A stretch of DNA of 36,653 nucleotides from Rubrivivax sp. (GTDB taxonomy: Bacteria; Pseudomonadota; Gammaproteobacteria; Burkholderiales; Burkholderiaceae_C): NCBI GenBank assembly GCA_016789865.1, contig JAEUPC010000215.1, positions 1 to 36,653 of the forward strand. Direction: 5' to 3'. Made by a program: the position numbers and the translations under genes. The notes beneath the pieces are model-generated. The model did no database searches and was not told where the DNA came from. It was given only the letters and a program-made list of their open reading frames with translations. Below, one piece after another: positions 2,716 through 35,601 of this stretch (the first letter of the stretch is position 1; every line of letters starts with the position of its first letter).

Positions 2716-2746
2716 GCGAACCACGGCCTTCGCAGGCCCAACCCCC

Positions 2747-10963: not shown

Positions 10964-11051
10964 CCGCTGTCAAGCGTGGCGCCTGCGGCGGCGCTTACCG
11001 TGTGCCGCACCGTCGCCCCGCCCACCCCTGCAAGCCATCGAAAGCCCGGCC

Positions 11052-11615
11052 ATGAGCGCAGCCCCCACCCCCTCGGCCGAGCCGATCGCCGGCTTTTCGC
11101 GGTGCCACGAAGGCATCCTCACGCACCTCGAGGCGCTGGCCGGCCTGCCGGCACTGCTCGACCCGGCGGCGCGCGCGCGGCACGTGGCCGAGGAGACAGT
11201 GCACTTCTTCCGCACCGCCGTCTACGAGCATCATCAGGAAGAAGAACGCAACCTGTTCCCCGCCGTGCTGGGCAGCGCCACGCAGGGCGCCGAGCATGAC
11301 CAGGTGCTGGCGATCGTGCGCCAGCTCACCGACGAGCACCGCGAGGTCGAGAGCCGGTACGAACACATCGAGCCGGCGTTGAAGAAGGTGGCCAAAGGGC
11401 AGGACGCGGGTGTCGACGGCAAGGAACTGGCCGCCGACATCGAGCACCTCGTGCGGCAGTACGAGGGCCATGCGCGCTACGAGGAGAATGACTTCCTGCC
11501 GCTGGCCGAGCGCATCCTCGGGCGCAACAGCAACCACATGGCTGCGCTCGGGCTGTCGATCCATCTGCGGCACGCGCTGCCCGACGTGCTGCAGCGCTAC
11601 GGGTCGCGGATCTGA
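11052..11615 (+). CDS. Hemerythrin HHE-domain protein
   Basis: The 187-residue product is a four-helix HHE-type protein. Candidate iron ligands appear in order: 'FSRCHEGILTHL', 'VYEHHQEEERNLFPAV', 'HDQVLAIVRQLTDEHREVE' and 'YEGHARYEENDFLPLAERIL'. Members bind a non-haem di-iron centre and act in oxygen, nitric-oxide or redox sensing, or iron-sulfur repair; which of these applies here is unknown. The ATG at 11052 is chosen because homology begins just after it. It lies 88 bp downstream of the ROK kinase on the same strand. Confidence 0.88.
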   Translation: MSAAPTPSAEPIAGFSRCHEGILTHLEALAGLPALLDPAARARHVAEETVHFFRTAVYEHHQEEERNLFPAVLGSATQGAEHDQVLAIVRQLTDEHREVESRYEHIEPALKKVAKGQDAGVDGKELAADIEHLVRQYEGHARYEENDFLPLAERILGRNSNHMAALGLSIHLRHALPDVLQRYGSRI

Positions 11616-11903
11616 CGACGCTCGAGGGGCCAGGGAATGCCAGGGGCCGGTGCAGCGTGCGGCATCGGCCTGCTCGAGCCGGTGCTACGATGAATTCGGC
11701 CGCGCGTGTGACGGCGCGTGGCCCTGCGAGGCATCGCGTCAGGTCCCTTGGTCATCCCGCCCCTACCACCCGCCAACCGCGGGCTGCCTTTCATCGCTGA
11801 GGCGTTCTTCGCCGCGTTGCCCCGGGGCCCGCGCTTCGCGCTGCCGCCGCAGGGCGGCTTCCGCCTGGACAGCTCCTCGAATCCGGCGCGCTGTCGCGGC
11901 GGC

Positions 11904-12068
11904 ATGCGGGAGCTGATGGACAACCTGCTGCACTGGCAAGCCCAGCATCGCAGCGGCGACGAGATCCGCGCGCTGTTCGCACGTTCGCGTTTTGCCGGCC
12001 AGCCGCTCGACCTGAGCCTGGACGATGGGCAGGTGACGCTGACCGCGTCTTGCCGCAAGGCCGCTTGA
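11904..12068 (+). pseudogene. Possible 3' remnant of a methyltransferase gene
   Basis: The last ~54 residues of this frame ('MRELMDNLLHWQAQHRSGDE' then 'IRALFARSRFAGQPLDLSLD') look like the C-terminal end of class I SAM methyltransferases of the type ending in a 'LLHW...HR...LFA.S.F' pattern. No catalytic SAM-binding domain is present upstream: the in-frame stretch from 11718 reads as unrelated proline-rich sequence. I see it as a truncated leftover, but a small unrelated gene or chance similarity is possible. The rest of 11616-12158 shows nothing I can support. Confidence 0.3.
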
Positions 12069-12158
12069 TCCGCGCGTTGCATCACCGGCGACGAATCGCC
12101 GCGGCGCCCGCTGCGCTCGAGGACCCTCAGCGCGCCGCCGTCCGCCGACGGCCGAGCA

Positions 12159-13187
12159 TCACGTCCGCGCCAGACCCAGCTCCAGCAGGCTGCGCGCGCA
12201 ATCGACGATGCTGCGCTCCACCGGCCGCGTCTGCCAGCCGAGCACGGCCTTGGCGTGGGCGGCGTCCTGGTGGCGTATCACGCCCAGCTCGCCGGCGGCG
12301 ACGCGCGCCTCGGCGCTGAAGAGAGCGCTCAGGCGCACCAGCCAGTCCGGGGCGTTGCGCGTGGTCACCTTGTGCGCCTGGGCGCCGAGTTCGGCGCGCA
12401 GCAAGTCGGCCATCTCGCGCAGCTTGACATAGCGGCCCGAGGCGATGAAACGCTCGCCGGCCATGCCGGGGGCGCGCAGCGCGCGCACGTGCAGATCGGC
12501 GGTGTCGCGCACGTCGACCACGCCGAAGCCGAGGTCGGGGGTCGCACTCACGCCGCCGTCGAGCAGCCGGCGCACGATCGCGACCGAGCTCTAGTTGTCA
12601 GGGCTCCACAGCGGCCCGAACACCACCGAGGGGCAGATGCTGCAGAACTCGAAGGCGGGCGCGGCTTCGCGCGCCACCCACTCGCGCGCCGCGCGTTCGG
12701 CCAGGGTCTTGCCCTTCGCGTAGGCCGAGAGGTCGCGGCGCTCGGGGTCGGTCCAGTCGGCCTCGGTGAAGGTCTGTTCCCCGCGCTCGTTGCCGCGGCC
12801 ATAAGCGACGGCCGACACCGAGGAGGTCATGACGAAGCGGCGCACACCGCTGGCCTGGGCGACACGCAGCGCGCGCAAGGTGCCTTCGTGCGCCGGCCCG
12901 ATCAGCTCATCGGGCGCCTGGCGGCTGCCCGAGGGCACCGGCGAGGCCAGGTGCGCCACATGGCTGCATCCGGCCATCGCCTCGGCCCAGCCGGTGTCCG
13001 CTTGCAGGTCGGCGGCGAAGAGGTGCAGTTTCGCGTTGTCCACCGCCAGCCGTGCGCGCAGCGCCGCTTCCTTGTCCAGGCTGCGTACGGTGGTGTGCAC
13101 GCGCCAGCCTTCGGCGACGAGTTGGCGGATCAGGAAGCCGGCGATGTAGCCGGACCCTCCGGTCACGAGGACGGTGCGGTCAGGCAT
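12159..13187 (-). pseudogene. NAD(P)-dependent epimerase/reductase (extended SDR) broken by one in-frame TAG
   Basis: The gene reads as a dihydroflavonol-4-reductase-like extended SDR. The Rossmann motif is intact ('TVLVTGGSGYIAGFLIRQL'), as is the active site ('SSVSAVAYG', then 'YAKGKTLAE' with the YxxxK pair). A TAG at 12591-12593 interrupts it after 'GPLWSPDN', and the same frame continues at once with 'SSVAIVRRLLDGG' and 'GVVDVRDTADLHVRAL', conserved in the family. Full length would be ~342 residues. The start overlaps the stop of the preceding SRPBCC gene as ATGCCTGA. A recent nonsense mutation is the simplest reading; a sequencing error or amber readthrough is possible. Confidence 0.85.
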
Positions 13188-13656
13188 GGGAGACCGCGCC
13201 GGCGCCCGGGCGCGCGAGGTAGGCCCGCATGCCTTCGGCACCCTTGCGCGCCGCGATGTCGTGGTTCAGCGCGAACAGCCGGTGCAAGATGGGGCCGAGC
13301 AGATCGAGGATCCACCGGTTGGTGCGCACGGTCTCCTCGAAGGTCACTTTCGTGCCGCCGCCCGCAGGCTCCGGGGTCCAGCGCCAGCTGCCTTCGAGCT
13401 CGCCGCTCACGGTGCCCTCGAGCAGGCGCGGCGCCTCCGAGCGCGTGCTGCGCGTGGTGATGGTCAGCGTGTAGGGCAGCAGCACCCGGAACTTCAGCAC
13501 AGCCACCGATCCCACCGGACCGTTGTCCTCGGTGACCCGGGCGTCGAGATAGATCGGCCACCACAGCGGGTAGGTCTCGGGCTCCTCCATCAGTGCCCAC
13601 ACCCGCGCCGGCGGCGCATCCACTTCCCACTCGTCGCGAAAGCTGTACGTCCTCAT
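13180..13656 (-). CDS. SRPBCC-family protein
   Basis: The 158-residue product is an SRPBCC (polyketide cyclase/dehydrase-like) protein: 'MRTYSFRDEWEVDAPPARVW' opens the first strand and helix, and 'GELEGSWRWTPEPAGGGTKV' gives the later strands. The long C-terminal helix contains 'LDLLGPILHRLFALNHDIA'. The fold binds hydrophobic ligands; the actual role is unknown. The ATG at 13656 has AGAGGG upstream and overlaps the stop of a preceding remnant as ATGA. Its own stop overlaps the SDR start by 8 bp. The three genes were evidently a translationally coupled operon. Confidence 0.85.
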   Translation of the reverse strand: MRTYSFRDEWEVDAPPARVWALMEEPETYPLWWPIYLDARVTEDNGPVGSVAVLKFRVLLPYTLTITTRSTRSEAPRLLEGTVSGELEGSWRWTPEPAGGGTKVTFEETVRTNRWILDLLGPILHRLFALNHDIAARKGAEGMRAYLARPGAGAVSHA

Positions 13657-15133: not shown

Positions 15134-16171
15134 TCACCCCTTGCCGTGCTTGGCGATCAGCGCGCGCGCCGTATCCAGCAGCACCTTGCCCTTGAAGCCG
15201 CGCTTGTCCATGTCGGCCACCCACTCGTCGTCGACATGCGACGAGAGCTTGACAAACTCCTCGCGCTGCGCGGCGGTGAACTGGTAGATGGTGTTGCCGC
15301 GGTCCACCGCGGCCTTGCGGCCGGCGGGGTCGTTGCCCTGCTGCGTCTTGCCCAGCCACGCCGAGGTGGCCGAGCCCGAGTTGGCGTCGATCACCTTCTT
15401 CAGGTCGGGCGCCAGGCCTTCGTACTTGGCCTTGTTCATGGCCATCACGAAGGTGGTGGTGTACAGCGCGCCGGCGCTGTTGTCGAACTCGCTGTGGAAC
15501 TTGGTGAGTTCATGCACCTTGACCGAGGGCACCACCTCCCACGGGATGACGCAGGCCTCGATCGTGCCCTTGCTCAGCGCGTCGGGGATCTGCGGCAGCG
15601 GCATGCCCACCGGCGTGGCGCCCACGCTGCCCAGCATCTTGGTGATCTGGCGCGTGGGGCCGCGCACCTTCATGCCCTTGAGATCCGCCGCGTTCTTGAT
15701 CTGCTTGGTGGCCGAGTGGAACATGCCCGGGCCGTGCACGTGCAGCGCGATGACCTGCGTCTCCTTGAACTCGTCGGGGCACTGGGTCTGGAAGTACTCC
15801 CAATAGGCCTTCGAGGTGGCCTCGGCGTTGTTCATCATGAACGGCAGCTCGAACACCTCGATGCGCGGAAAGCGCCCGGCCGTGTTGGCCGGCAACGTCC
15901 AGATGATGTCGACGACACCGTCGCGCGCCTGGTCGTACAGCTGCACCGGCGTGCCGCCCAGCTGCATGGCCGGGTAGGCCTCGAACTTGATGCGGCCGGC
16001 CGAGTCCTTCTCGACCTTCTCCATCCACGGCTTGTGCATCGTGAGCCACACGTTGCTCATCGGCGCCATGAAGGTGTGGAACTTCAGCGTCACGCTCTGC
16101 TGGGCCAGCGCGGCCAGCGGGGTGCCCAGGGTCACGGCGGCGCCGGCCTGGACGAAGCTGCGTCTTTTCAT
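15134..16171 (-). CDS. dctP: TRAP transporter substrate-binding protein (DctP family)
   Basis: A periplasmic solute receptor for a tripartite (TRAP) importer, 345 residues. It opens with an RR-containing signal peptide ('MKRRSFVQAGAAVTLGTPLAALAQQ' in outline: RR at 3-4, hydrophobic core, A-x-A-type cut near residue 24). The mature part has the DctP features 'GRIKFEAYPAMQLGGTPVQL' and 'LKGMKVRGPTRQITKMLG', the latter with the arginine that usually salt-bridges a carboxylate ligand. The ATG at 16171 has GGAGA upstream. No membrane subunits are adjacent. DctQ and DctM genes without a binding protein lie at 23.8-25.6 kb, a possible partner. The substrate is probably an organic acid. Confidence 0.92.
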   Translation of the reverse strand: MKRRSFVQAGAAVTLGTPLAALAQQSVTLKFHTFMAPMSNVWLTMHKPWMEKVEKDSAGRIKFEAYPAMQLGGTPVQLYDQARDGVVDIIWTLPANTAGRFPRIEVFELPFMMNNAEATSKAYWEYFQTQCPDEFKETQVIALHVHGPGMFHSATKQIKNAADLKGMKVRGPTRQITKMLGSVGATPVGMPLPQIPDALSKGTIEACVIPWEVVPSVKVHELTKFHSEFDNSAGALYTTTFVMAMNKAKYEGLAPDLKKVIDANSGSATSAWLGKTQQGNDPAGRKAAVDRGNTIYQFTAAQREEFVKLSSHVDDEWVADMDKRGFKGKVLLDTARALIAKHGKG

Positions 16172-16183
16172 CGGTTCAATCTC

Positions 16184-16248
16184 CGGGAAAACGAGTACGG
16201 GCAAGACCATAACGCCCGGCTCGGGCCGCAGCCGTCGCGGTTTTCCCG
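16184..16248 (-). promoter_or_regulatory. Long-range inverted repeat in the dctP leader
   Basis: CGGGAAAAC (16184-16192) and GTTTTCCCG (16240-16248) are perfect complements 47 bases apart. In the dctP transcript the downstream arm runs directly into the GGAGA ribosome binding site. The pair could be a split operator or an mRNA structure affecting translation. Confidence 0.35.
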
Positions 16249-22302: not shown

Positions 22303-22725
22303 TCACCGAAAGGGGTCGACGATCGTCAGCCCTTCCAGCTTCTGCCCGTGCTGCAGGTCTTCGCTGAGCAGCGTGCGGCAGCCGGCGGTCAAGGCCGAGG
22401 CGACGATCAGAGAGTCGTAGAAGCCGAACCGCCAGCGCGCCTTCACGTCGAGCGCGCGCTGGTACAGCGCTTCGCTGGCGGTGATCTGCATCAGCGGCAG
22501 CAGCACCGCTTCGAGGTAGGTGCGCGCTGCTTCCACCGGCAGCGCCACCTCCGCTTTGCGCAGCGCCACGTTCAGGCACTCCTGCACCACCTGATAGCTG
22601 ATGCAGGCGTTGCCCGTCACCAGCCCCTCGCGCACGATGCGCTCGGCCACAGCGTGTTTGCGCGGATCGGTGTTGTCGAGGTGGTAGACGAAGACGTTGG
22701 TGTCGACGAAGAACTCAGCGCTCAT
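22303..22725 (-). CDS. vapC: VapC-type PIN-domain toxin
   Basis: A 140-residue PIN-domain ribonuclease. The four acidic metal-binding positions are present: Asp8 ('FFVDTNVFVYHLD'), Glu49 ('VVQECLNV'), Asp104 ('GFYDSLIVASAL') and Asp123 ('LLSEDLQHGQ'). VapC toxins cut RNA, often initiator tRNA, when their antitoxin is lost. The ATG at 22725 lies inside the 3' end of the antitoxin gene (11-bp overlap), the usual antitoxin-first arrangement. Some members of this branch act as housekeeping nucleases, but the context supports a toxin-antitoxin module. Confidence 0.92.
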   Translation of the reverse strand: MSAEFFVDTNVFVYHLDNTDPRKHAVAERIVREGLVTGNACISYQVVQECLNVALRKAEVALPVEAARTYLEAVLLPLMQITASEALYQRALDVKARWRFGFYDSLIVASALTAGCRTLLSEDLQHGQKLEGLTIVDPFR

Positions 22726-22936
22726 TCATCGCTTCCCGGCCGAGCTTGCGCCCCACGCGCATCTTGCCGCGCAGGCCGCGCATGACCGCTTCGTAGCGCT
22801 GCAGACGCTCGTCGGTCTTCGCGTAGCCGGCCAGCCAACGCCGGAACTGCTCGTTCAGCGTGGTGTTCTCGGCGCGCGCGCGCTCGCGAGCGGCTTCGAT
22901 CAACGACTCGTCGGCACTGAGGGTGATGTTCTTCAT
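22715..22936 (-). CDS. vapB: VapB-type antitoxin (ribbon-helix-helix)
   Basis: A 73-residue protein with an N-terminal ribbon-helix-helix: 'MKNITLSADESLIEAARERA' then 'RAENTTLNEQFRRWLAGYA'. The basic C-terminal tail ('GLRGKMRVGRKLGREAMNER') would wrap the toxin. RHH antitoxins bind their own promoter together with VapC. Upstream, two short perfect palindromes are candidate operators. The stop overlaps the vapC start by 11 bp, so the two are translationally coupled. Confidence 0.9.
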   Translation of the reverse strand: MKNITLSADESLIEAARERARAENTTLNEQFRRWLAGYAKTDERLQRYEAVMRGLRGKMRVGRKLGREAMNER

Positions 22937-23802: not shown

Positions 23803-25119
23803 CTACCCCACGTACTTCACCAACCACAGCGAGATGCCCGGCACGAACAGCAGCAGCAGCGTGCGCAGCGTGTCCGCGGCGAGGAAGGGCATCACGCCCT
23901 TGTAGCTTTCGGCGATCGGCAGGTCGCGGGCCATGCCGTTGACGATGTAGACGTTCAGGCCCACCGGCGGCGCCAGCAGGCCGAAGCCCACGGTCATCAA
24001 CACCATGATGCCGAACCAGATGGCCACACTCTCCTTGGGCAGGCCGAAGTCCAGCCCCATCACCATCGGAAAGAAGATCGGGATGGTCAGCAGGATCATC
24101 GAGAGCTCGTCCATCACCGCGCCGAGGATGACGTAGAAGACGAGGATCGCCCCCACCACCGCCAGCGGCGCGAGACCCCAGCCCTGCACCACGCTCGCCA
24201 GCTGCGCCGGCACCTGGGTCAGCGCCAGCGCCGAGTTCATGAGGTCGGCGCCGAGGAAGATCATGAAGATCATCGCCGAGGCTTCGGCCGTGGCGTAGAA
24301 GCACTGCTTGAACTTGGGCCAGTCGATCTCGCGCTTGAGCAGCGCGGCCACGAAGGTGGACGCCGCGCCCACCGCGGCGCCTTCGGTGGGCGTGAACTTG
24401 CCGCCGTAGATGCCGCCGAAGACGACGAGAAAGATGATGGCGATCGGCGCGATGCCCTTCAGCGACGAGAGCGTCAGCGCCGGCGCCTCGTCGTGCTCGG
24501 GGGCGTGGCCGGGCACCAGGCGCACGTAGATCGCGATGGCCACCATGTAGCCCAGCATCGCGATCAGCCCCGGCACCATCGCCGCGGCAAACAGCTTGGC
24601 GATGTTCTGTTCGGTGAGGATGGCGTAGATCACCAGCGGCACCGAAGGCGGAATCAGGATGCCCAGCGTGCCGCCGGCGGCCAGCGTGCCGGTGGACAGG
24701 CGGCCGGAGTAGCCGTGCTTCTTCATCTCCGGCAGCGCCACCTGCGTGATGGTGGCTGCGGTGGCCACGCTGCTGCCGCAGATGGCGCCGAAGGCCGCGC
24801 AGGCCATCACCGCGGCCATCGCGAGGCCTCCCTTGAAGCGCGCCATCACGGCCGCCGCGAACTCGAACAGCGCGCGGCTGATGCCCCCCTGCGTGGCAAA
24901 GTTGCCCATCAGGATGAACAGCGGGATGACGCTCAGGTCGTAGCTGGCAAAGCGCGCGAAGGCCTGCGTGTTGAGAAAACTCGCCAGCGGCAGCCAGCCG
25001 GCCTGCAGCACGTAGCCGATGCAGCCGGCGGCGAACATGCAGATCGCGATCGGCACGCGCACGGCCATCAGCACGAGCATCAGCGCGAAGATGAGCACGG
25101 TCAGCGCGATCGGGGTCAT
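23803..25119 (-). CDS. dctM: TRAP transporter large membrane subunit DctM
   Basis: The 438-residue, ~12-helix subunit that forms the ion-coupled transport channel of a TRAP importer. Family marks include 'GNFATQGGISRALFEFA', 'CGSSVATAATITQVALPEM', 'GGTLGILIPPSVPLVIYAIL' and 'GLLAPPVGLNVYIVNG'. It follows dctQ by 10 bp on the minus strand. No binding-protein gene is next to it; the family normally needs one. The gene ends the six-gene unit that starts with the Rieske oxygenase, so it probably imports the pathway's substrate. Confidence 0.95.
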   Translation of the reverse strand: MTPIALTVLIFALMLVLMAVRVPIAICMFAAGCIGYVLQAGWLPLASFLNTQAFARFASYDLSVIPLFILMGNFATQGGISRALFEFAAAVMARFKGGLAMAAVMACAAFGAICGSSVATAATITQVALPEMKKHGYSGRLSTGTLAAGGTLGILIPPSVPLVIYAILTEQNIAKLFAAAMVPGLIAMLGYMVAIAIYVRLVPGHAPEHDEAPALTLSSLKGIAPIAIIFLVVFGGIYGGKFTPTEGAAVGAASTFVAALLKREIDWPKFKQCFYATAEASAMIFMIFLGADLMNSALALTQVPAQLASVVQGWGLAPLAVVGAILVFYVILGAVMDELSMILLTIPIFFPMVMGLDFGLPKESVAIWFGIMVLMTVGFGLLAPPVGLNVYIVNGMARDLPIAESYKGVMPFLAADTLRTLLLLFVPGISLWLVKYVG

Positions 25120-25129
25120 CGCCGGGCCC

Positions 25130-25612
25130 TCACGCGGCCGCCGCCGGCATGCCGGCTTGTCGGCGCACGGCCTGCACCAGCGCGATCAGGGCCGCCAGCG
25201 CGATCGGCGGCACCATGAAGCAATACACCACCCATTCCGGGAAGCCCAGCATCATCGAGCCGGACTGCGACCGCCACGCGTTCAGCCCGCCGATCGTCGT
25301 GCGCCAGGTCAGCAGCCCCATGCACATTGCCAGCACCAGCGCGCCGAAGCGGTCCAACGCCGCTTGCGCCGCCTCGCTGGCGCGCGCGGTGAAGAAGTCG
25401 ACGATGATGTTGCCGCGCCGCCACTGGCACCACGGCAGGAACAGCGCAATGGCCGCGCCGGCGGCCGAGCCCGACAGTTCGAAGTCGCCCACGATCGTCC
25501 AGCCCACCGTGTTGCGGCCGATCACGCTGACGCAGGTCATCAACGTGATCAACGTCAGCAGCACGCCAGCCAGCACGGCGCAGGCCTTGGCCAAGATCTC
25601 CAGCAGGCGCAT
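25130..25612 (-). CDS. dctQ: TRAP transporter small membrane subunit DctQ
   Basis: A 160-residue protein with four predicted transmembrane helices (around residues 10-30, 45-62, 90-105 and 125-147), the usual DctQ pattern. 'GRNTVGWTIVGDFELSG' and 'CQWRRGNIIVDFF' match the family's conserved blocks. It pairs with DctM in the inner membrane. The ATG at 25612 has GAGGAAAAGG upstream and lies 39 bp after the ferredoxin stop, so the two are probably co-transcribed. Confidence 0.92.
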   Translation of the reverse strand: MRLLEILAKACAVLAGVLLTLITLMTCVSVIGRNTVGWTIVGDFELSGSAAGAAIALFLPWCQWRRGNIIVDFFTARASEAAQAALDRFGALVLAMCMGLLTWRTTIGGLNAWRSQSGSMMLGFPEWVVYCFMVPPIALAALIALVQAVRRQAGMPAAAA

Positions 25613-25651
25613 GGCCTTTTCCTCGCTCCCGGTTCGTCTTGTGCGGCCGGA

Positions 25652-25978
25652 TCAGTATTGGGTTGGCGGCAGCCGCAGCACAAGCCCGTGCAACTCCGGG
25701 GTCATGATGAGCTGGCAGCTCAACCGGCTGCCCGCCTCGCGCCGTGCGGCGGTCATCTCCAGCATGGCGTGCTCGTCGGCCGTCGGCGCGGGCAGCCGAC
25801 CGGCCCATTCGGCAGGCACCCTCACGTGGCAGGTGGCGCAGGTCATCGTGCCGCCGCAGTCGGCGGCGATGCCCTCGAGGCCGGCCTGCACGGCCGCCCA
25901 CATCGCGCTCTTGCCCGGCGCGGCCTCGACGATCTGGCGTGTGCCGTCGTCGGCAATGAAGTTGAGCTGAAGCGACAC
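25652..25978 (-). CDS. [2Fe-2S] ferredoxin, adrenodoxin-like
   Basis: A 108-residue electron carrier. The cluster motif is 'DCGGTMTCATCHVRV' (Cys-x5-Cys-x2-Cys) with the fourth cysteine in 'SRLSCQLIMTPELHGL', the adrenodoxin/putidaredoxin pattern. I prefer the GTG at 25978, which starts the first strand ('VSLQLNFIADDGTRQ'); ATGs at 26014 and 26053 would add unconserved residues. It sits between the CoA-transferase and dctQ in the catabolic gene row and could feed electrons to the Rieske oxygenase. No ferredoxin reductase is in the window. Confidence 0.88.
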   Translation of the reverse strand: MSLQLNFIADDGTRQIVEAAPGKSAMWAAVQAGLEGIAADCGGTMTCATCHVRVPAEWAGRLPAPTADEHAMLEMTAARREAGSRLSCQLIMTPELHGLVLRLPPTQY

Positions 25979-26062
25979 GGGGCGGTACCTGGAGCGGCGC
26001 TGGACGGCGCGCATTGTCTGTGGCGCACCGCCGGCGCGCGCGGCATGGACCATCTAGCAGTT

Positions 26063-26077
26063 ATGCCGAAGCGGCAT
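26063..26077 (-). other. Intercistronic hairpin between CoA-transferase and ferredoxin genes
   Basis: ATGCCG (26063-26068) and CGGCAT (26072-26077) form a tight stem with a 3-base loop, 50 bp after the CoA-transferase stop on the minus strand. It could be an attenuator, an mRNA processing or stability element, or chance. No T-run follows. Confidence 0.35.
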
Positions 26078-26127
26078 GCTGCGCCTCGGCGCCGCACCGC
26101 GCCGCTCGGTCTTCAGGGGTCAGGCGC

Positions 26128-27324
26128 TCAGGCCACCACCTTGCGCGCGCGCAGTGCGGCAATCTCGTCTTCGCCGAAGGCCAGCTCGCGCAGCACGGCA
26201 TCGGTGTCGTCGCCCAGGCCGGGCGCCGACGAGCGCACGCCGCCGGGCGTGCCCAGCAGCTTGGGCACGATGCCGGGCACGGCCACGTCGTGGCCGTCGC
26301 GCGTCTTCTGCGTGAGGATCATGTCGCGCTCGCGGTAATGCGGGTCTTCGGCGATGTCCTTGGCCGTGTAGACGCGGCCCGAAGGCACGCCGGCGTCGGC
26401 CAGCGCGGCCAGCACCTCGGCGGCCGGCTGGGTGCGCGTCCACGTTTCGATGGCCGCGTCCAGCTCGGCCGCGCGCTGCGCGCGGCCGGCGTTGCCGGCC
26501 AGCGCGGGGTCGCGGGCCAGGTCATCCCGGCCGACCACGCCCATCAGGCGTTTGAAGATGCTGTCGCCGTTGCCGCCGATCAGCACCGCCGCGTCGTCGC
26601 CGCAGCGGTAGGCGTTCGAAGGTGCGATGCCCGGCAGCGCGGAGCCGGCGGGTTCGCGCACGACCCCGAACGCGCTGTACTCGGGCAGGAGGCTCTCCAT
26701 CACGTTGAAGACCGCCTCGTGCAGCGCCACGTCGATCACCTGGCCCGGGCCGCCGTGCACCTTGCGGTGGTACAGCGCCATCAGCACGCCGATCGTGCCG
26801 TGCAGCGCGGCCAGCGTGTCGCCGATCGAGATGCCACAGCGCACCGGCACGCGGCCGGGCTCGCCGGTGAGGTGACGCAAGCCGCCCATCGCCTCGCCGA
26901 TGACGCCGAAGCCCGGCCGGTCGCGGTAGGGCCCGGTCTGCCCGTAGCCGCTGATGCGCAGCATCACCAGCCCGGGGTTCGTCTTGGCGAGTTCGTCGTA
27001 GCCCAGGCCCCAGCCCTCCAGCGTGCCGGGGCGGAAGTTCTCGATCAGCACGTCGGCCTCGTCGATGAGCCTGCGCGCGATGGCCTGCCCTTCGGCGCTG
27101 CGCAGGTCCAGCGCGATCGAGCGCTTGTTGCGAGACTGCACCTGCCACCACACCGAGGTGCCGTCCTGCAGCAGGCGCCAGTGGCGCAGCGGGTCGCCGG
27201 CCTCGGGCGGCTCGATCTTGATGACCTCGGCGCCGAAGTCGCCGAGCGTCTTGCCGGCGAACGGACCGGCAATGAGCTGGCCCATCTCGACGACCTTCAG
27301 GCCCTGAAGTGCGGCTGGGTGCAT
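26128..27324 (-). CDS. Class III (CaiB/BaiF family) CoA-transferase
   Basis: A 398-residue cytoplasmic enzyme that moves CoA from a donor thioester to an organic acid. The N-terminal 'LKVVEMGQLIAGPFAGKTLG' and 'GAEVIKIEPPEAGDPLRHW' are standard for the family, as are 'LIENFRPGTLEGWGLGYDEL', 'ISGYGQTGPYRDRPGFGVIG' and the active-site region 'GQVIDVALHEAVFNVM'. The ATG at 27324 has GAGGAG upstream. It lies 68 bp after the GS-like gene in the same direction. Probable role: activation of an acid product or substrate of this pathway; succinyl-CoA as donor is only a guess. Confidence 0.92.
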   Translation of the reverse strand: MHPAALQGLKVVEMGQLIAGPFAGKTLGDFGAEVIKIEPPEAGDPLRHWRLLQDGTSVWWQVQSRNKRSIALDLRSAEGQAIARRLIDEADVLIENFRPGTLEGWGLGYDELAKTNPGLVMLRISGYGQTGPYRDRPGFGVIGEAMGGLRHLTGEPGRVPVRCGISIGDTLAALHGTIGVLMALYHRKVHGGPGQVIDVALHEAVFNVMESLLPEYSAFGVVREPAGSALPGIAPSNAYRCGDDAAVLIGGNGDSIFKRLMGVVGRDDLARDPALAGNAGRAQRAAELDAAIETWTRTQPAAEVLAALADAGVPSGRVYTAKDIAEDPHYRERDMILTQKTRDGHDVAVPGIVPKLLGTPGGVRSSAPGLGDDTDAVLRELAFGEDEIAALRARKVVA

Positions 27325-27392
27325 GGCGTGCTCCTCGTGCGCCGGCGGCGCCGCGCCCGTTGGGGGCGTGGACGGTTCGTTCACGGCTTGTC

Positions 27393-28922
27393 TCAATAGC
27401 GGCCGAAGTACTCGCGCCGCAGCCAGGCGTCGCGGTCCTCTGCGGCGGCGAAGCGCGCCAGCTCCTGCTGCTTCACCGTCTCGATCAAGCGCGCCAGCGG
27501 CACGCCCAGGCCCTGCTGCAGCACCGGGTCGGCGGCCAGTGCGTCCAGCGCTTCGCCCAGCGACGTGGGCAGCATCACCGGCGCCGCGGCGTAAGGCGTC
27601 TCGGTGGCCGGCGGCGGTTCGAGCCGGCGGTCCAGGCCGTCGAGGCCGGCAAACACCTGCGCGGCGACGTAGAGGTACGGGTTGGCCATCGGCTCGCCCA
27701 GGCGGTTCTCGATGCGCGTGGCCGGGTCGCCGCCGGGCACGCCCGGCTCGCCCAGCACGCGCAGCATGGCGCCGCGGTTGTCGCGGCCCCACAGCGCCGC
27801 CTGCGGCGCCATCACGCTGCCCTGGTAGCGGCTGTAGGCGGCAATGGTGGGTGCGCACAGCGCGGCCATGCCGCGCGCATGCGCCAGCAGGCCGGCCAGC
27901 CAGTGCGCACCGGCATCGGTGAGCACACGGCGCGCGTCGCCCGCGATGGCTTCGTCGCGGCCGGCGGGCTCGCGCCGCCGGAAGGTGTTGCCGCCATCGC
28001 GCAGATCCACCAGCGACTGATGCAGGTGCCAGCCGCTGGCAATCGCGTTGGGCAGCGGCGGGCGGCACACGAAGCTCACGTGATAGCCGGCGCGGCGCAG
28101 CGCCTGCCGCATGCCGTTGCGGAACAGCAGCATCTGGTCGGCCGCCCCCAGCGCATCGGACACCCCGAACACCGCCTCGAACTGGCTGGGGCCGAGCTCG
28201 ACCTCCAGCGACCGCAACGGCAGGCCGAGCCCCAGCGCGTGGTCGCGCACCAGCGCCAGCGCCTCGTGCGCCATGTCGGCCCAGTTCTCGGCCAGCAGGT
28301 TGTAGCCCGGGTGCAGCAGGCGCACGGCGGGCGGTTCGGCCGGCCACGCGGCGTGCTCAGCGGCCAGCGCGGGCGAGGTGGCCTCGTCGACGATGCGATG
28401 GATGTGGAACTCCACCTCCAGCCCGCAGCGCAGCCCGTGGCCGCGCCGCGCCAGCGCGGCCAGCGCCTGCTGCAGCACCCGGCGTGGGTCGATGGCGACC
28501 TCGGTGCCGTCGGGGAAGAACGGCTCGGCGCGCAGCCAGCCGGTGCGCTCGGCCCAGGGCAGCACGACAAAGCTCGCGGGGTCGGGCAGCAGGAACAGGT
28601 TGTTGGCGCCGCGCAGCCCCGGCAGCGCCGCTGGTGCCTCGGGGTCGAAGACCTTGAACGCGGTGCGGTCGGAGGTGTCCTTCAGCAGGATCGTGCTGAC
28701 GAAACCGATGCCGTCGTCGAAGGCGCCGCGCAGCACGCGGCACTCGGCGTCGGCCGGGTCGAGCACCAGCGTCTTGCCGCGGAACGTGCCGTGCAGGTCG
28801 CCCCAGGCGATGCGCACCTGCGCGAGACCGGCCTCGCGCACACGCGCCACCACCGCCTCGATGGCGGCGGCGCGCTCAGCGGGGGCGGCGCCGGCGTGAC
28901 CGGCGCGCTGGGCCAGCGTCAT
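27393..28922 (-). CDS. Glutamine-synthetase-like ligase
   Basis: The 509-residue protein has a full GS fold: an N-terminal beta-grasp part ('QVRIAWGDLHGTFRGKTLVL') and the catalytic part with 'GLEVEFHIH', 'ELGPSQFEAVF' and 'IENRLGEPMANPYLYVAAQV'. It is not a canonical GlnA: the usual NGSGMH-type loop reads 'SGWHLHQSL', and the adenylylation tyrosine segment is missing. It is closer to gamma-glutamyl-amine ligases (PuuA, IpuC and relatives), which glutamylate amines for catabolism. The start overlaps neighbours tightly: only 7 bp separate it from the Rieske stop, with no clear ribosome binding site, so translation is probably coupled. Confidence 0.9.
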   Translation of the reverse strand: MTLAQRAGHAGAAPAERAAAIEAVVARVREAGLAQVRIAWGDLHGTFRGKTLVLDPADAECRVLRGAFDDGIGFVSTILLKDTSDRTAFKVFDPEAPAALPGLRGANNLFLLPDPASFVVLPWAERTGWLRAEPFFPDGTEVAIDPRRVLQQALAALARRGHGLRCGLEVEFHIHRIVDEATSPALAAEHAAWPAEPPAVRLLHPGYNLLAENWADMAHEALALVRDHALGLGLPLRSLEVELGPSQFEAVFGVSDALGAADQMLLFRNGMRQALRRAGYHVSFVCRPPLPNAIASGWHLHQSLVDLRDGGNTFRRREPAGRDEAIAGDARRVLTDAGAHWLAGLLAHARGMAALCAPTIAAYSRYQGSVMAPQAALWGRDNRGAMLRVLGEPGVPGGDPATRIENRLGEPMANPYLYVAAQVFAGLDGLDRRLEPPPATETPYAAAPVMLPTSLGEALDALAADPVLQQGLGVPLARLIETVKQQELARFAAAEDRDAWLRREYFGRY

Positions 28923-28929
28923 CGGCCGC

Positions 28930-30381
28930 TCAGGCCGAAGGGGTGGTGGCCGGCACGGCAGCGGCGGCAGCGGCCGGCGCGGGCGCACTGCCCACCGTCG
29001 GTGGCGAGCCGGCCAGCCAGGCCGCGCGCGCACGCTTGGCGGCGCAGCCTTCGCGCCACGTCGACTCCCAGCCGGCCGCCGGCGCGACACAGTCGATGGT
29101 GTCGGGGCCGACGAGGGCCGCCGCGGCTGCGGCATCCAGCCGGCCCGGCGGCATGCCGCCCGCCTTCACCGTCTCGATGGCTGCGAGCAGCGTGCGCCGA
29201 TTCGCCATGATCACCTTGTCGCTGGTGCCCAGGTGCTCGCGCGTGCGGTCCTGGATGGCGCCCATGCTCTCGCAGGCCCATTGGTCGTGCACGTTGATGT
29301 CGGCCTCGCCCATGCCGAGGTAGGTGCGGCTGGCCTGCTCGGCGGCGTCGTAGCCCCAGTCGTTGCCGCGCCCCTTCTTCGGCAGGTAGTCGGGCAGCTC
29401 GGTGTTCGCGAGGCGCTGGCTGCGCATCGTCTCCTTGTCCAGCGGCGCGTCGAAGCTGGTGAAGAACGAATACCAGTAGGTGTTGAAGTCGTCCACCGGC
29501 ACGTGCATCTGCGTGATGGTCACCGTCTCCGACAGCGGGATGACGAAGGTGTACGGGAACAGCGCGTTGGTCACGCGCACATGCGTGAAGCGCGCGTTGA
29601 TCAGGCGCAGCGTGGTGATGCGCGTCAGCCCCGCGGCCTTGTCACCCAGCGCCTCGTGGCGGATCTCGGGCGAGTGGCACTCGCGCAGCACCTTGGTCAT
29701 CGGCCAGCGCTCGCCGTCGATGCTGCCGGCGCTGGCGCCGCGGAACTGGCGGCCGTAGGTGTGGGCCGGATCGACATCTTCGTCGAGCATGCGGTGCAGG
29801 AACGACGCATGCGCCGGGTCGATGCCTACCTCGAACGCCTGCAGCCAGTTGCAGCGCCACAGGCCCTTGAAGGCGAAGCTGTGCGAAGCGGGCGCGGCGA
29901 AACAATCGAAGGCCGGCAGTTCGGGCGGTGCCGAACCCTCGGGCCCGAGGTAGGCGAAGAGCGTGCCCGCGGCCACGCGCAACGGGTAACTGCGCTGGCG
30001 CACCCGCTGGCAAAGCGTGCTGCCGACCCCATTGATGGACGGTTCGGCCGGCGTCTCCAGGCAGCGGCCGTCGGCGGCGAACTTCCAGCCGTGGAACGGG
30101 CAGCGCACGCCGTCGCCTTCGTGCCGGGCGTACTTCAGGTCGGCGCCGCGGTGCGCGCAGTCGCGGTCCAGCAGGCTGTGGCGGCCTTCGGCGTCGCGCC
30201 ACAGCACGAAGTCCTGGCCGAGCAGGCGCACCGCCTTCAGCGGGCGCAGCGCCATCGCCGGGTCGAGCCGGGGCTCGAACTCGTCCAGCAGCGCCACCGG
30301 GTGCCAGTAGCGCCGCAGCAGGTCGCCACAAGGCGTGCCGGGGCCGATGCGGGTGATGAGTTCGTTCTGGGCGGCTTGCAT
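28930..30381 (-). CDS. Rieske non-haem iron oxygenase, alpha-subunit type
   Basis: The 483-residue protein has an N-terminal Rieske domain with Cys75-x-His77 ('RDCAHRGADLKY') and Cys94-x2-His97 ('RCPFHGWKF'), and a C-terminal catalytic domain with the mononuclear iron motif Asp188-x2-His191-x4-His196 ('GIDPAHASFLHRM'). It is of the single-component phthalate/vanillate-demethylase type, with no beta subunit nearby. Such enzymes hydroxylate or demethylate aromatics using a reductase or ferredoxin. Its last ~60 residues are Ala/Pro-rich and not conserved. The ATG at 30381 is chosen by homology; the ribosome binding site is weak. It heads the operon. Confidence 0.93.
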   Translation of the reverse strand: MQAAQNELITRIGPGTPCGDLLRRYWHPVALLDEFEPRLDPAMALRPLKAVRLLGQDFVLWRDAEGRHSLLDRDCAHRGADLKYARHEGDGVRCPFHGWKFAADGRCLETPAEPSINGVGSTLCQRVRQRSYPLRVAAGTLFAYLGPEGSAPPELPAFDCFAAPASHSFAFKGLWRCNWLQAFEVGIDPAHASFLHRMLDEDVDPAHTYGRQFRGASAGSIDGERWPMTKVLRECHSPEIRHEALGDKAAGLTRITTLRLINARFTHVRVTNALFPYTFVIPLSETVTITQMHVPVDDFNTYWYSFFTSFDAPLDKETMRSQRLANTELPDYLPKKGRGNDWGYDAAEQASRTYLGMGEADINVHDQWACESMGAIQDRTREHLGTSDKVIMANRRTLLAAIETVKAGGMPPGRLDAAAAAALVGPDTIDCVAPAAGWESTWREGCAAKRARAAWLAGSPPTVGSAPAPAAAAAAVPATTPSA

Positions 30382-32068: not shown

Positions 32069-32797
32069 ATGACGATGGCTGCGCCCACCGCCTTGTCCCT
32101 GTCGCTCGCTGTCGAAGGCGCAGGCGCCATCTCGGCGTTGGCGCTCGAGCCGGCCGGCGCGCGCGTGGCCTTCGTGCTGGCCCACGGCGCAGGCGCCGGC
32201 ATGACCCATCCCTTCATGCAGCGGCTGGCCGAAGGCCTGGCGGCGCGCGGCGTGGCCACGCTGCGCTACCAGTTCCCGTACATGGAGCGCGGCAGCAAGC
32301 GCACCGATCCACCGCCCGTGGCGCACGCCGCGGTGCGCGCCGCGGTGGCCGAGGCGCGCCGGCGCTGGCACCGGCTGCCGCTGGTCGCCGGCGGCAAGTC
32401 GTTCGGCGCGCGCATGACCTCGCAGGCGCAGGCCGCGGCGCCGCTGCCGGGCGTCGCCGGCCTCGTGTTCATCGGCTTCCCGCTGCACCCGGCGGGCGCA
32501 CCGGGTACGCAGCGTGCCGACCACCTTGCGGGCGTGGCCTGCCCGATGCTCTTCCTGCAAGGCACGCGCGACGAGCTGGCCGAGCCGGCGCTCGTGCGCC
32601 AGGTGCTCGCCCGGCTGGGCGAACGCGCCGCGGTCGAGTGGTTCGAACACGCCGACCACGCGTTCCACGTGCGCGCCGGTGACGTGAAGCAGCACGGCGC
32701 GCGCAACGACGACGAAGTGCTGGCCGCGCTGCTGGACGCAGCGGCGCAGTGGATCCACCTGCGCGGCGCGGCGGCCGTGCCAGGACCTGCAGCGTGA
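32069..32797 (+). CDS. Alpha/beta hydrolase (KANSL3/Tex30-like)
   Basis: A 242-residue alpha/beta-hydrolase. The nucleophile elbow is 'VAGGKSFGARM' with Ser111, the acid is in 'LQGTRDELAEP' and the histidine in 'HADHAFHV'. The 'LAHGAGAGMTHPFMQRLAEG' and 'RYQFPYMERGSKR' blocks are characteristic of the KANSL3/Tex30 branch, whose bacterial members have no known substrate. The ATG at 32069 is chosen; a second ATG two codons on is possible. Its TGA overlaps the GTG start of ligD by 4 bp (GTGA), so the two are coupled. Confidence 0.9.
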   Translation: MTMAAPTALSLSLAVEGAGAISALALEPAGARVAFVLAHGAGAGMTHPFMQRLAEGLAARGVATLRYQFPYMERGSKRTDPPPVAHAAVRAAVAEARRRWHRLPLVAGGKSFGARMTSQAQAAAPLPGVAGLVFIGFPLHPAGAPGTQRADHLAGVACPMLFLQGTRDELAEPALVRQVLARLGERAAVEWFEHADHAFHVRAGDVKQHGARNDDEVLAALLDAAAQWIHLRGAAAVPGPAA

Positions 32798-35601
32798 GTG
32801 CCGGCGCGGCCTCAGGCGCCACCGCGGGGCGATCAGACACGGCGGCACCCGCCGAGCCGCTGCGCCCGCCCCGCCCCGCCACCGGCCGGCCGCTCAAGCA
32901 GTACACCGCCAAGCGCGACTTCCGCCTCACGCCCGAACCGCCGGCCGATGTGGCCGAGGTGAGCCACGGCTCGCTGTCGTTCGTGGTGCAGAAGCACTGG
33001 GCCTCGCGCCTGCACTACGACTTCCGGCTCGAACTTGACGGCGTGCTGCTCAGCTGGGCCTGCCCCAGGGGCCCCAGCTACGACCCGGCCGAGAAGCGCA
33101 TGGCCGTGCACGTGGAAGACCACCCGGTGGCCTACGCCAGCTTCGAAGGCACCATCCCGAAGGGCCAGTACGGCGCCGGCCGCGTCATCGTGTGGGACCG
33201 CGGCACGTGGCAAGCGGTGGGCGACCCGCGGCAGGGCATGGCCGCGGGCAAGCTCGTCTTTCAACTGCACGGCGAGAAACTCGCCGGCCTGTGGGAACTG
33301 GTGCGCATCAGCAAGCCCGGCGACAAGCAGGAGCCGTGGATGCTGTTCAAGAAGCGCGACGCGTGGGCGCGGCCGCTGCTCGAGTACGACGTGGTCAGCG
33401 CACTGCCCGACAGCGTGGTCGACAAGCCGCTGGGGTTGATTGAACAGCGCGAGCCGCGCGTGGCCGCGGCAGGCACCGCGGGGGGTGGCAGCGGGGGCAC
33501 GGGCGGCCCCGCGCAGGCGCAGCTGCCCGACTCGGCCGCCGCGCTGCCGGGCGCACAGCGCGCCGAGCCGTTTCCCGCCAGGCTTGCGCCGCAGCTGGCC
33601 AGCGCCGCCGATGCGCCACCCACGCGCGGCCACTGGCTCTACGAGTTGAAGTTCGACGGCTATCGGCTGCTGGCGCGCTTCGATGCCCAAGGCGCCGTGT
33701 CGCTGCACACCCGCAACGGCCACGACTGGACGGCTCGGCTGAAGCCGCTGGCCGCGGCGCTGCACGCCTGGGGCTTGAAGTCAACCTGGCTCGACGGCGA
33801 GATCGTCGTGATGGGCGCGCGTGGCACGCCCGACTTCAACGCGCTGCAAAACGCCATCGACTCCGCGCGCGGCGGCGAGGCGATCCGCTACTTCGCCTTC
33901 GACATTCCTTTTCACCACGGCCACGATCTGCGCGCCGTGCCGCTGGCCGTGCGCCGCGCGTGGCTGAAGCGGCTGTTCGAAACGCGGCTTGCGGCCACGG
34001 ATGGCGATGGCGATGGCGATGGCGATGGCGATGGCGATGGCGATGGCGATGGCGATGGCGATGGCGATGGCAATGGCGATGGCGACGGCACAGAGATCGC
34101 CCGCACGACCGAGGCCGTGCAGCTCAGCGCCGACTTCGCCGCCGACCCCGCGAGCCTGCTCGAAAGCGCCCGCGCACTCGGCCTCGAAGGGCTGATCGCC
34201 AAGCGCGCCGATGCGCCCTACGTCTCGCAGCGCAGCGACAGCTGGCTGAAGCTCAAGCTCGCGGCGCGGCAGGAGTTGGTGATCGGCGGCTTCACCGAAC
34301 GCCAGGGCGCGCCGCGCGAAGTGGGCAGCCTGATCCTCGGCGTGTACGACGCCGCCGGCGCGTTTGTGCACGCCGGCAGCGTGGGCACCGGCTGGAACGC
34401 CGCCACCGCCGCGGCGCTGCGCACGCAGCTGGCGCCGCTGGAACAACCCGCGCCGCCCTTCACCGCCGGCAGCCCCGACCCCGGCCGCTTCAGCCGCCGC
34501 GGCGCCGGCAGCGAGCGCTGGGTGCGGCCGGAGCTCGTCGCCGAAGTGCGCTTCGCCGGCTGGACACCCGACGGCCACGTGCGCCACGCCGTCTTCGTGG
34601 CGCTGCGCAGCGACAAGCCGGCCCGCAGCGTGACGCGCGAGCGCGTGGTCACGCAAGCAGCGCTCGCTTCACTGCCCGGGGCGCGGCTGGCCAAGCTGAA
34701 GGTGACGCATGGCGAGCGTGTCATCGATGCCGCCACGGGCCTCACCAAGCTCGACCTCATCCGCTACTACGACAGCGTGGCCGAGCGCATGCTGCAGCAC
34801 CTGGCGGCGCGCCCGCTGGCGCTGGTGCGCGCGCCCGAAGGCGTGGCCGGTGCGCAGTTCTTCCAGAAGTACGACGAGGCCGGCAGCATCCCCGGGCTGA
34901 AGGCGCTCGACGCCAAGCTCTTCCCCGGCCACGCGCCGCTGCTTACCGTGCCCGATGCCGAGGCGCTGCTGTCGGCAGCGCAGATGAACGTCATCGAGTT
35001 CCACCCCTGGAACAGCACTGCGAAGAAGATCGGTGAGCCCGACCGCATCGTCTTCGACCTCGACCCCGGCGAGGGCCTGCCGTGGGAGCGCATGAAGGAA
35101 GCGGCGCTGCTTGTGCGCACGCTGCTCGACGAACTGGGCCTGCAGGTGTGGCTCAAGACCAGCGGCGGCAAGGGCCTGCACCTGGTGGTACCGCTGACGG
35201 CGCGGTGGCCGCACGAGACGGTGAAGGCGGTGTCCAAGGCGGTGGTGCTTCACCTGGCACGCACGATCCCTTCGCGCTTCGTGGCCAAGAACGGCCCGGC
35301 CAACCGCGTCGGCCGCATCTTTGTGGACTACCTGCGCAACGGCGAAGGCGCGACGACGGTAGCGGCTTTCTCGGCGCGCGCCCGACCGGGCCTGGGCGTA
35401 TCGATGCCGCTGGAGTGGGAGGAACTGCCCGACCTGAAAGGCTCGGCGCAGTGGACCATCACCAATGCGCGGGATCGTCTGTCACTGCATGCCGCGAGCC
35501 CCTGGACAACACTGCGGCCGCAGTCGCTGTCGCGGGCGCTCAAGGCACTGCAAGTCGAGCCCGCAGCGGCCGGTCGCCGCACACGGACTCGCAAGGATTG
35601 A
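32794..35601 (+). CDS. ligD: ATP-dependent DNA ligase D (PE-LIG-POL)
   Basis: LigD is the multi-enzyme of bacterial non-homologous end joining, normally acting with Ku (not in the window). The 935-residue product has the Pseudomonas-like order. The 3'-phosphoesterase is at ~35-220 with His68, His74, Asp76 and His110. The ligase is at ~260-640 with adenylated Lys286 in 'ELKFDGYRL' and 'GLEGLIAKR'. The primase-polymerase is at ~655-930 with 'FDLDPGEG' (Asp755, Asp757) and 'RIFVDYLRN'. Residues 403-432 are an Asp-Gly repeat from a GATGGC array, inserted in the ligase domain. The GTG at 32794 overlaps the hydrolase stop. Family members are usually ~840 residues, so this one is enlarged. Confidence 0.95.
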   Translation: MSAGAASGATAGRSDTAAPAEPLRPPRPATGRPLKQYTAKRDFRLTPEPPADVAEVSHGSLSFVVQKHWASRLHYDFRLELDGVLLSWACPRGPSYDPAEKRMAVHVEDHPVAYASFEGTIPKGQYGAGRVIVWDRGTWQAVGDPRQGMAAGKLVFQLHGEKLAGLWELVRISKPGDKQEPWMLFKKRDAWARPLLEYDVVSALPDSVVDKPLGLIEQREPRVAAAGTAGGGSGGTGGPAQAQLPDSAAALPGAQRAEPFPARLAPQLASAADAPPTRGHWLYELKFDGYRLLARFDAQGAVSLHTRNGHDWTARLKPLAAALHAWGLKSTWLDGEIVVMGARGTPDFNALQNAIDSARGGEAIRYFAFDIPFHHGHDLRAVPLAVRRAWLKRLFETRLAATDGDGDGDGDGDGDGDGDGDGDGDGNGDGDGTEIARTTEAVQLSADFAADPASLLESARALGLEGLIAKRADAPYVSQRSDSWLKLKLAARQELVIGGFTERQGAPREVGSLILGVYDAAGAFVHAGSVGTGWNAATAAALRTQLAPLEQPAPPFTAGSPDPGRFSRRGAGSERWVRPELVAEVRFAGWTPDGHVRHAVFVALRSDKPARSVTRERVVTQAALASLPGARLAKLKVTHGERVIDAATGLTKLDLIRYYDSVAERMLQHLAARPLALVRAPEGVAGAQFFQKYDEAGSIPGLKALDAKLFPGHAPLLTVPDAEALLSAAQMNVIEFHPWNSTAKKIGEPDRIVFDLDPGEGLPWERMKEAALLVRTLLDELGLQVWLKTSGGKGLHLVVPLTARWPHETVKAVSKAVVLHLARTIPSRFVAKNGPANRVGRIFVDYLRNGEGATTVAAFSARARPGLGVSMPLEWEELPDLKGSAQWTITNARDRLSLHAASPWTTLRPQSLSRALKALQVEPAAAGRRTRTRKD
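34000..34089 (+). repeat. GATGGC hexanucleotide array (15 units) inside ligD
   Basis: Twelve perfect GATGGC units (34000-34071) are followed by AATGGC, GATGGC and GACGGC. The array keeps the reading frame for any copy number and encodes (Asp-Gly)12-Asn-Gly-(Asp-Gly)2. Such arrays are prone to slipped-strand change. Confidence 0.95.

Follow-up and report, generated by a model that had tools for sequence, protein, structure and literature searches.

Background

The closest described counterpart of the six-gene operon analysed here, which lies on a 36,653-nucleotide stretch of Rubrivivax sp. DNA (hereafter the window), is the sad operon of Hydrogenophaga intermedia PBC. According to PMC5632844, sadA encodes a dioxygenase, sadB a glutamine synthetase and sadC a ferredoxin, and the operon converts 4-aminobenzenesulfonate. 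By the same account it is fairly well conserved throughout the Hydrogenophaga genomes reported up to that time, and the 4-sulfocatechol genes are present in H. intermedia only. Gan et al. observed there that sad is conserved in bacteria presumably little exposed to xenobiotics, and suggested that it naturally serves a compound of similar structure, whose identity they left open (PMC5632844). We propose that in the window's operon a glutamine synthetase (GS)-like ligase very probably glutamylates an anionic aromatic amine and a Rieske oxygenase (RO) oxidises the product, and that the operon probably, if less surely, serves the glutamylation-dependent degradation of 4-aminobenzoate or a closely similar anionic aniline.

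The aniline and 1-naphthylamine systems (AtdA, NpaA1-A5) follow a similar logic. As described in PMC11335346, a GS-like enzyme first glutamylates the amine, and the resulting gamma-glutamyl amide is the substrate of a Rieske dioxygenase, which yields a catechol-type diol. NpaA1 glutamylates both 1-naphthylamine and aniline and is reported not to require its GAT-like partner; the Rieske dioxygenase turns the amide from 1-naphthylamine into 1,2-dihydroxynaphthalene (PMC11335346). These systems have large and small oxygenase subunits, a reductase and a GAT-like gene (PMC11335346), whereas the window has a single-subunit oxygenase of the phthalate group, a separate ferredoxin and a Lys in place of a loop Phe; no second oxygenase subunit, reductase or GAT-like gene was found in its operon. 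Among the loci compared, GAT-like and two-subunit oxygenase genes stand beside the GS gene in L073 and L074, and a GAT-like gene does so in L137 and L139.

With the sad operon the window shares an oxygenase, a GS and a ferredoxin in the same order, the sad order being read from the gene lettering. It differs in its tripartite ATP-independent periplasmic (TRAP) importer, its inserted CoA-transferase and a predicted carboxylate rather than sulfonate substrate. The likeness is one of gene kinds, the SadA-SadC sequences lying outside our comparison, in which a relative from Novosphingobium resinovorum SA1 served as proxy (identities of 53% for RO and 42% for GS). By gene content and order the core would be a sad-type module, a kind already known, and by gene context its oxygenase would be SadA-like. 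The initial annotation of the window did not recall the combination as described, which does not hold for oxygenase, GS and ferredoxin, already in print as the sad operon (PMC5632844). The present analysis adds how widely the family is spread, which residues its ligases have on the loop, the link to an importer, the co-occurrence with protocatechuate cleavage and the specific substrate proposed. A search of the open-access literature, with subscription papers outside its coverage, found no report of aminobenzoate glutamylation. Metabolic networks of the Ralstonia strains are described as all containing 4-aminobenzoate degradation via 3-oxoadipate (PMC10470067), and in the accessible part of PMC4539516, which describes an aniline route, 4-aminobenzoate appears only as an anaerobic reference.

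Results and discussion

Organization of the operon and its conservation

The genome to which the window belongs, as contig C222, is 77% complete, and the window's nearest named relatives are Rubrivivax metagenome-assembled genomes (MAGs). Six open reading frames (ORFs) occupy positions 23803-30381, all on the minus strand, and their proteins match the Pfam families Rieske and LigXa_C, Gln-synt_C, CoA_transf_3, Fer2, DctQ and DctM, respectively. The ORF coordinates bear out the single strand and the gaps of 7, 68, ~150, 39 and 10 bp first reported for these genes, which hold with starts at 30381 (RO), 28922 (GS), 27324 (CoA-transferase) and a GTG at 25978 (ferredoxin). This GTG is also the start picked by the gene caller for the ferredoxin homologue in L039, which comes from a MAG nearly identical to the window (95-97%). 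The features are:

28930..30381, minus strand: single-subunit RO, phthalate/isophthalate dioxygenase group (Rieske PF00355, LigXa_C PF19301)
27393..28922, minus strand: predicted GS-like ligase forming gamma-glutamyl amides, its amine-binding loop carrying Lys81 and Arg86 (PF00120)
26128..27324, minus strand: class III CoA-transferase (PF02515, E = 1.4e-126; possible GTG start at 27384)
25652..25978, minus strand: putidaredoxin/adrenodoxin-type [2Fe-2S] ferredoxin (PF00111; ORF open to 26053)
25130..25612, minus strand: TRAP small permease DctQ (PF04290)
23803..25119, minus strand: TRAP large permease DctM (PF06808; TIGR00786 above cut-off)
15134..16210, minus strand: TRAP binding protein DctP, outside the operon (PF03480, E = 8e-42; probable start near 16171, MKRRSF)

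When the window was scanned for promoters and terminators, a single promoter-like site was found ahead of the RO gene (30418-30389; 0.2 expected), which we do not use as evidence, and terminators came at chance level only.

The GS-like ligase was searched for in 299 genomes of the family (E <= 1e-60) and matched in 67 of them, as well as in 26 loci of named genomes. The comparison of neighbourhoods covered the window, all 26 named loci, 15 of the 44 plasmid records and, of the 66 further genomes that have the ligase, 60; fragments and contig ends (G115, G166, G186, G198, G277, G279) and second copies in G114 and G196 were omitted, and G115, G166, G186, G198 and G279 were excluded from the count of RO adjacency. 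Genes were called with a home-made codon-score script that misses some of them, such as the GS genes of L055, L057, L072 and L073, of which those of L072 and L073 were added from annotation.

The initial annotation had suggested looking for the same gene order in other genomes. The RO gene lies directly upstream of the GS gene in 57 of 61 loci (family genomes and window), so that a lack of conserved order does not count against the operon. The median gap over these 57 loci is -4 bp, that is, the genes overlap, and the adjacency is far beyond chance. The four loci without a called RO-GS pair are two aniline-type clusters (L137 and L139), L117 (genome G216), where the GS gene contains a stop codon and the gene caller found no RO, and L126 (G009), where the RO was not called. 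The ferredoxin gene follows directly in 41 of the 57 RO-GS loci, and an importer lies downstream in 33. Pairwise identities of RO and GS co-vary over 81 loci (Spearman 0.89), which mostly reflects shared descent. The core is the RO, the GS-like ligase and the putidaredoxin-type ferredoxin. As a six-gene unit the operon is not conserved: core and importer recur, and the CoA-transferase accompanies them in the window and L039 only. In three alphaproteobacterial plasmid loci a small CHMI-like protein is encoded directly after the GS, in the slot of the ferredoxin (L069 8346-8699, L070 7338-7676, L072 7476-7817).

The ligase and its amine pocket

The window's GS-like protein does not reach the cut-off of any of the NCBIfam GS equivalogs that it matched. 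Its best PDB match is NpaA1 (8wwu, E = 4.9e-90; the next match has 2.8e-34), and the top 13 Foldseek matches are all NpaA1 chains. A plain glutamine synthetase was rejected on these searches, the NCBIfam cut-offs and the tree, the protein lying on the NpaA1 side.

In NpaA1, F75 is located on a loop lining the amine tunnel, and the F75A variant is reported to lose aniline activity almost wholly (PMC11335346). Loop positions 62-91 of NpaA1 (the motif-15 loop) align without gaps with the cassette ligases. In an alignment of uninterrupted proteins above the script's length limits, the F75 position is a Lys in 88 of 94 GS rows, including all 85 cassette rows (Lys81 in the window). The six rows without it are NpaA1, an aniline-type row from Variovorax SRS16 (entered twice), which we take to be TdnQ, L137, L139 and a Devosia MAG (L060), and together they form one branch of the tree with support 100. 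At the position of S80, 87 of the 88 Lys rows have Arg, Lys or His (Arg86 in the window). The amine-binding residues E232 and E234 and also F86 of NpaA1 are retained in 85 of 85 cassette rows. W235 corresponds to Leu243 in the window's ligase, a position that is not discriminating; AtdA1 is likewise reported to have a Leu there (PMC11335346).

Of the marks of the GoaS class, which comprises NpaA1, AtdA1 and their relatives, the window's ligase has the homology, the loop and E232/E234 and does not have the aromatic tunnel pair F75 and F86. Judged by sequence it would belong to the general GoaS class and, by the F75 mark, would not be an aniline enzyme. The two added positive charges on the amine loop point to a substrate bearing an acid group, which suggests an anionic aniline. 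The earlier proposal that the GS-like enzyme glutamylates an amine is in keeping with both its homology to NpaA1 and these predicted pocket residues.

In the Devosia MAG the GS relative (L060 4251-9443) has a Leu at the loop position, and its neighbouring genes group with those of the two Rieske subunits (alpha and beta) in L074; this ligase appears to form a separate branch on the aniline side.

The oxygenase and its electron supply

The best PDB match of the RO is isophthalate dioxygenase (IPDO-KF1, below IPDO; 9ina, E = 1.3e-57), followed by 7fhr and phthalate dioxygenase (PDO; 7fjl), and Foldseek placed 9ina, 9ioy, 7fhr and 7fjl at the top. The structure model is weak (mean pLDDT 71), and the models of both RO and GS served for confirmation of the fold only. 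The Rieske motif CXH...CXXH (C75, H77, C94, H97) and the triad histidines H191 and H196 are conserved in at least 84 of 85 rows.

R234 and H257 of IPDO are described as binding the two carboxylates of isophthalate (PMC12445078). R234 (R244 in PDO) aligns with R269 of the RO, which is invariant in 85 of 85 rows; this correspondence comes from the printed alignment with an inferred numbering offset of 23. The carboxylate Arg is thus shared with the closest solved oxygenases (9ina and 7fjl), whereas H257 and T175 of IPDO are replaced by Gln291 and Pro189 in the cassette RO, each invariant in 85 of 85 rows. One anion site would be retained and the other altered, as expected if a glutamyl amide takes the place of one carboxylate. 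IPDO works with a reductase, and the accessible part of the report mentions no glutamylation step (PMC12445078).

For the ferredoxin the best PDB match is the 4ltu ferredoxin (E = 7.6e-28), with putidaredoxin next. That the Rieske enzyme may oxidise the glutamylated product with the ferredoxin as donor, as the initial annotation had it, agrees with the homology, the conserved gene order and the pocket residues.

The importer

In loci of the Rubrivivax type the order is RO-GS-ferredoxin-DctQ-DctM-DctP, and in several relatives the DctP gene directly follows that of DctM. In the window it is displaced ~7.6 kb downstream of DctM on the same strand, and the protein clusters with the DctP of the relatives, so that the TRAP complement (PF04290, PF06808 and the displaced PF03480) is complete. 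The suggestion that the TRAP pair imports the substrate fits the homology and the conserved order, and has to be extended by a binding protein that lies outside the interval first considered. In loci of the Polaromonas JS666 type, mostly with a ferredoxin reductase gene, a five-gene LIV-type ABC importer occupies the TRAP slot, as a LIV-type importer also does in L049. Since different importers swap in the same slot, the substrate of the module would be an imported one, and we suggest that the importer carries it. Between DctM and DctP (22303-22936, minus strand) there is a gene for a PIN-domain protein with a small upstream partner without a Pfam match, an arrangement resembling a toxin-antitoxin pair.

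The substrate and its ring-cleavage route

Three groups of relatives bear on the position of the acid group. A homologue of PnbB, a 4-hydroxylaminobenzoate lyase, is encoded within ~7 kb in 5 of the 15 plasmid loci (L066, L067, L075, L076 and L079), whose hosts are Methylobacterium nodulans, two Caballeronia, Cupriavidus necator and Paraburkholderia phymatum. The protein of Caballeronia insecticola matches PF16155 with E = 9.7e-60, and the other four are 61-82% identical to it. Four of these five loci have a nitroreductase gene and four a PcaK-like transporter gene, and the two from Caballeronia have a Peptidase_C26 gene resembling gamma-glutamyl hydrolase. In Palleronia the GS relative stands beside annotated protocatechuate 3,4-dioxygenase genes. 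N. resinovorum SA1, described as a 4-aminobenzenesulfonate degrader (PMC5632844), has an RO-GS pair whose ligase carries the loop Lys and whose oxygenase keeps R269 and Q291. Taken together, the PnbB loci, Palleronia and SA1 point to the para position, to 4-aminobenzoate and to protocatechuate as product. The SA1 plasmid pSA3 (L072) and the plasmid clusters of Caballeronia, Cupriavidus and Paraburkholderia (L067, L068, L075, L076 and L079) share the RO-GS pair and the diagnostic Lys with the window and differ in having a ferredoxin reductase gene in or near the cluster; of the latter five, four each have a PcaK-like major facilitator superfamily transporter, PnbB and a nitroreductase.

Co-occurrence was counted in 65 of the 67 genomes with the ligase (cassette genomes; the aniline-type G065 and G095 were dropped) and in 234 others. 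Protocatechuate dioxygenase, scored by a LigA domain or by PcaH above the cut-off, is present in 64 of 65 cassette genomes and 152 of 234 others, the sole cassette genome without one (G166) being 78% complete. LigA alone occurs in 61/65 and 118/234; of the four cassette genomes lacking it, three have PcaH. When the count is restricted to the first draw (G001-G140, with about one genome for each genus), the dioxygenase is present in 31 of 31 against 76 of 109 (p = 8e-5). Homogentisate dioxygenase (HGD), a neutral control, occurs in 26/65 and 91/234. The window's own genome has two LigA matches. The cassette of G082 has a LigA match at a distance of ~8.6 kb, and after that match come ORFs that we take to be LigB, LigI and LigK (L155, G082:C11:336000-354000, local 10667-13613, minus strand), which makes this one genome a case of a protocatechuate 4,5-cleavage cluster near an RO-GS cassette.

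Several observations weigh against 4-aminobenzoate degradation by this route. PcaH alone is rarer in cassette genomes (4/65 against 41/234); the protocatechuate association rests on LigA, and the LigA domain is found also in enzymes for other catechols. Kinship was allowed for in the first draw only of the co-occurrence counts. In tblastn searches with LigA and LigB of G082 and PcaGH of Palleronia, no match was found in the fetched cassette stretches except in G082 and Palleronia (L069) themselves. No ferredoxin reductase gene was found within the window's operon, and its genome has three weak candidates, the best with 35% identity. In 15 of the 57 RO-GS loci no ferredoxin was called within 11 same-strand genes. 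The GS model has pLDDT <50 at residues 85-92, exactly at the loop, so that the reading of the pocket comes from the alignment alone, and the conserved R269 may be general to this group of oxygenases. Lastly, gentisate dioxygenase is enriched in cassette genomes (31/65 against 39/234), and downstream of the RO-GS pair 11 of 57 loci have a gene for gentisate 1,2-dioxygenase and 8 have one for 3-hydroxybenzoate 6-monooxygenase, which points to gentisate and away from protocatechuate.

These gentisate genes, with FAH in 17 of 57 loci and a maleylacetoacetate isomerase gene upstream in part of the loci, could mean that another anionic aniline, such as 3-aminobenzoate, anthranilate or an aminosalicylate, feeds a gentisate or other ring-cleavage route, a gentisate pathway then starting with the module in the Comamonadaceae-type loci. 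The anthranilate-forming enzymes kynureninase and tryptophan 2,3-dioxygenase are also encoded in the window, L050 and L051. We consider this explanation unlikely: simple dioxygenation at the amine-bearing carbon and its neighbour cannot, on chemical reasoning, give gentisate; the named relatives act at the para position; 34 of the 65 cassette genomes have no gentisate dioxygenase over the cut-off; and in the window's genome, at its 77% completeness, no match was found at E <= 1e-80. We read the gentisate genes as a neighbouring aromatic-acid cluster that uses the same importer. Many cassettes (L082-L112; for example L094 9343-15495) are followed by genes for a small ABM-domain protein (18 loci) and a MarR regulator, and partly by the gentisate-pathway genes for 3-hydroxybenzoate 6-monooxygenase, gentisate dioxygenase and FAH. 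The kynurenine genes lie ~20 kb from the operon in the window (1414-3577, plus strand) and within ~10 kb in L050 (19029-21198) and L051 (7881-10201); as a functional link supplying anthranilate in these three loci they were set aside, the connection being one of synteny only.

That the substrate is 4-aminobenzenesulfonate (sulfanilate), converted to 4-sulfocatechol as in the sad operon, would explain the same kinds of core genes and the loop Lys, R269 and Q291 shared with the SA1 relative, yet we regard it as quite improbable: the ligase, present in 67 of 299 genomes, has a wide distribution, the dioxygenases associated with the cassette are of ordinary protocatechuate families, and, in the account of PMC5632844, the confinement of the 4-sulfocatechol genes to H. 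intermedia stands beside the proposal of a similar natural substrate. An aniline or chloroaniline operon making catechol, which the GS family and the GS-then-Rieske logic recall, was rejected as highly implausible on the counts of the ortho-cleavage enzyme catechol 1,2-dioxygenase (CatA, E <= 1e-60; 0/65 cassette genomes against 31/234, 19 of these 31 over the family cut-off, with catechol meta-cleavage outside the count) and on the loop, where Phe is replaced by Lys and the aniline-side branch (NpaA1, SRS16, L137, L139 and the Devosia ligase) stands apart.

The CoA-transferase

The initial annotation assigned the CoA-transferase to the pathway as the step activating an acid. Only two genomes, closely related to each other, have it beside an RO-GS pair, however: those of the window (1 of 57 RO-GS loci of the family genomes and window) and of L039 (1 of the 19 RO-GS loci from genome contigs). 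The 9 RO-GS plasmid loci have none. Orthologs with ~70-80% identity occur in six genomes of the same genus, not beside RO or GS within the fetched stretches, and in G094, which is among the six, the GS search gave no match at E <= 1e-60. The gene is probably a late, lineage-specific insertion outside the core pathway and was most likely inserted into the operon by chance. A single pathway of all six genes, which the common strand, the short gaps and the intact CoA-transferase gene might recommend, is rejected as hardly credible for an enzyme that is missing from all examined RO-GS loci save these two and whose orthologs lie elsewhere.

A putative pathway

From the computed gene order, protein families, pocket substitutions and co-occurrences we infer the chemical steps, substrate, para position and import of a 4-aminobenzoate pathway as follows. 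The TRAP system (DctQM with the displaced DctP) would import an aromatic amine bearing an acid group, and the GS-like enzyme would couple the amine to the gamma-carboxyl of glutamate at the expense of ATP. The RO, receiving electrons via the ferredoxin and an unlinked ferredoxin reductase, would then dioxygenate the nitrogen-bearing ring carbon and its neighbour, so that the glutamyl-amide group would leave and a catechol remain. With 4-aminobenzoate as the most likely substrate the product would be protocatechuate, to be cleaved by a protocatechuate dioxygenase encoded elsewhere in the genome. Of the initial interpretation, glutamylation, Rieske oxidation, the ferredoxin and the TRAP importer fit this scheme, and the CoA-transferase step and the claim of an undescribed combination do not.

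Other features of the window

A long ORF at 32794-35601, which we take, short of a domain search, to be DNA ligase D-like, contains 15 copies of the 6-bp unit GATGGC (34000-34089, plus strand), encoding an Asp-Gly run.

Conclusions

Whether there is a widespread glutamylation-dependent route for 4-aminobenzoate, in which glutamate is a removable handle and of which the sulfanilate sad pathway is a later use, seems to us an evenly balanced question. If such a natural pathway exists, the answer to the question of the natural substrate raised by Gan et al. would be 4-aminobenzoate, a folate precursor, converted to protocatechuate, and this is directly testable. The Lys at the position of NpaA1 F75 is a sequence mark that may separate anionic-aniline from aniline ligases, and glutamylation chemistry of the aniline type would be linked to the normal metabolism of aromatic acids.

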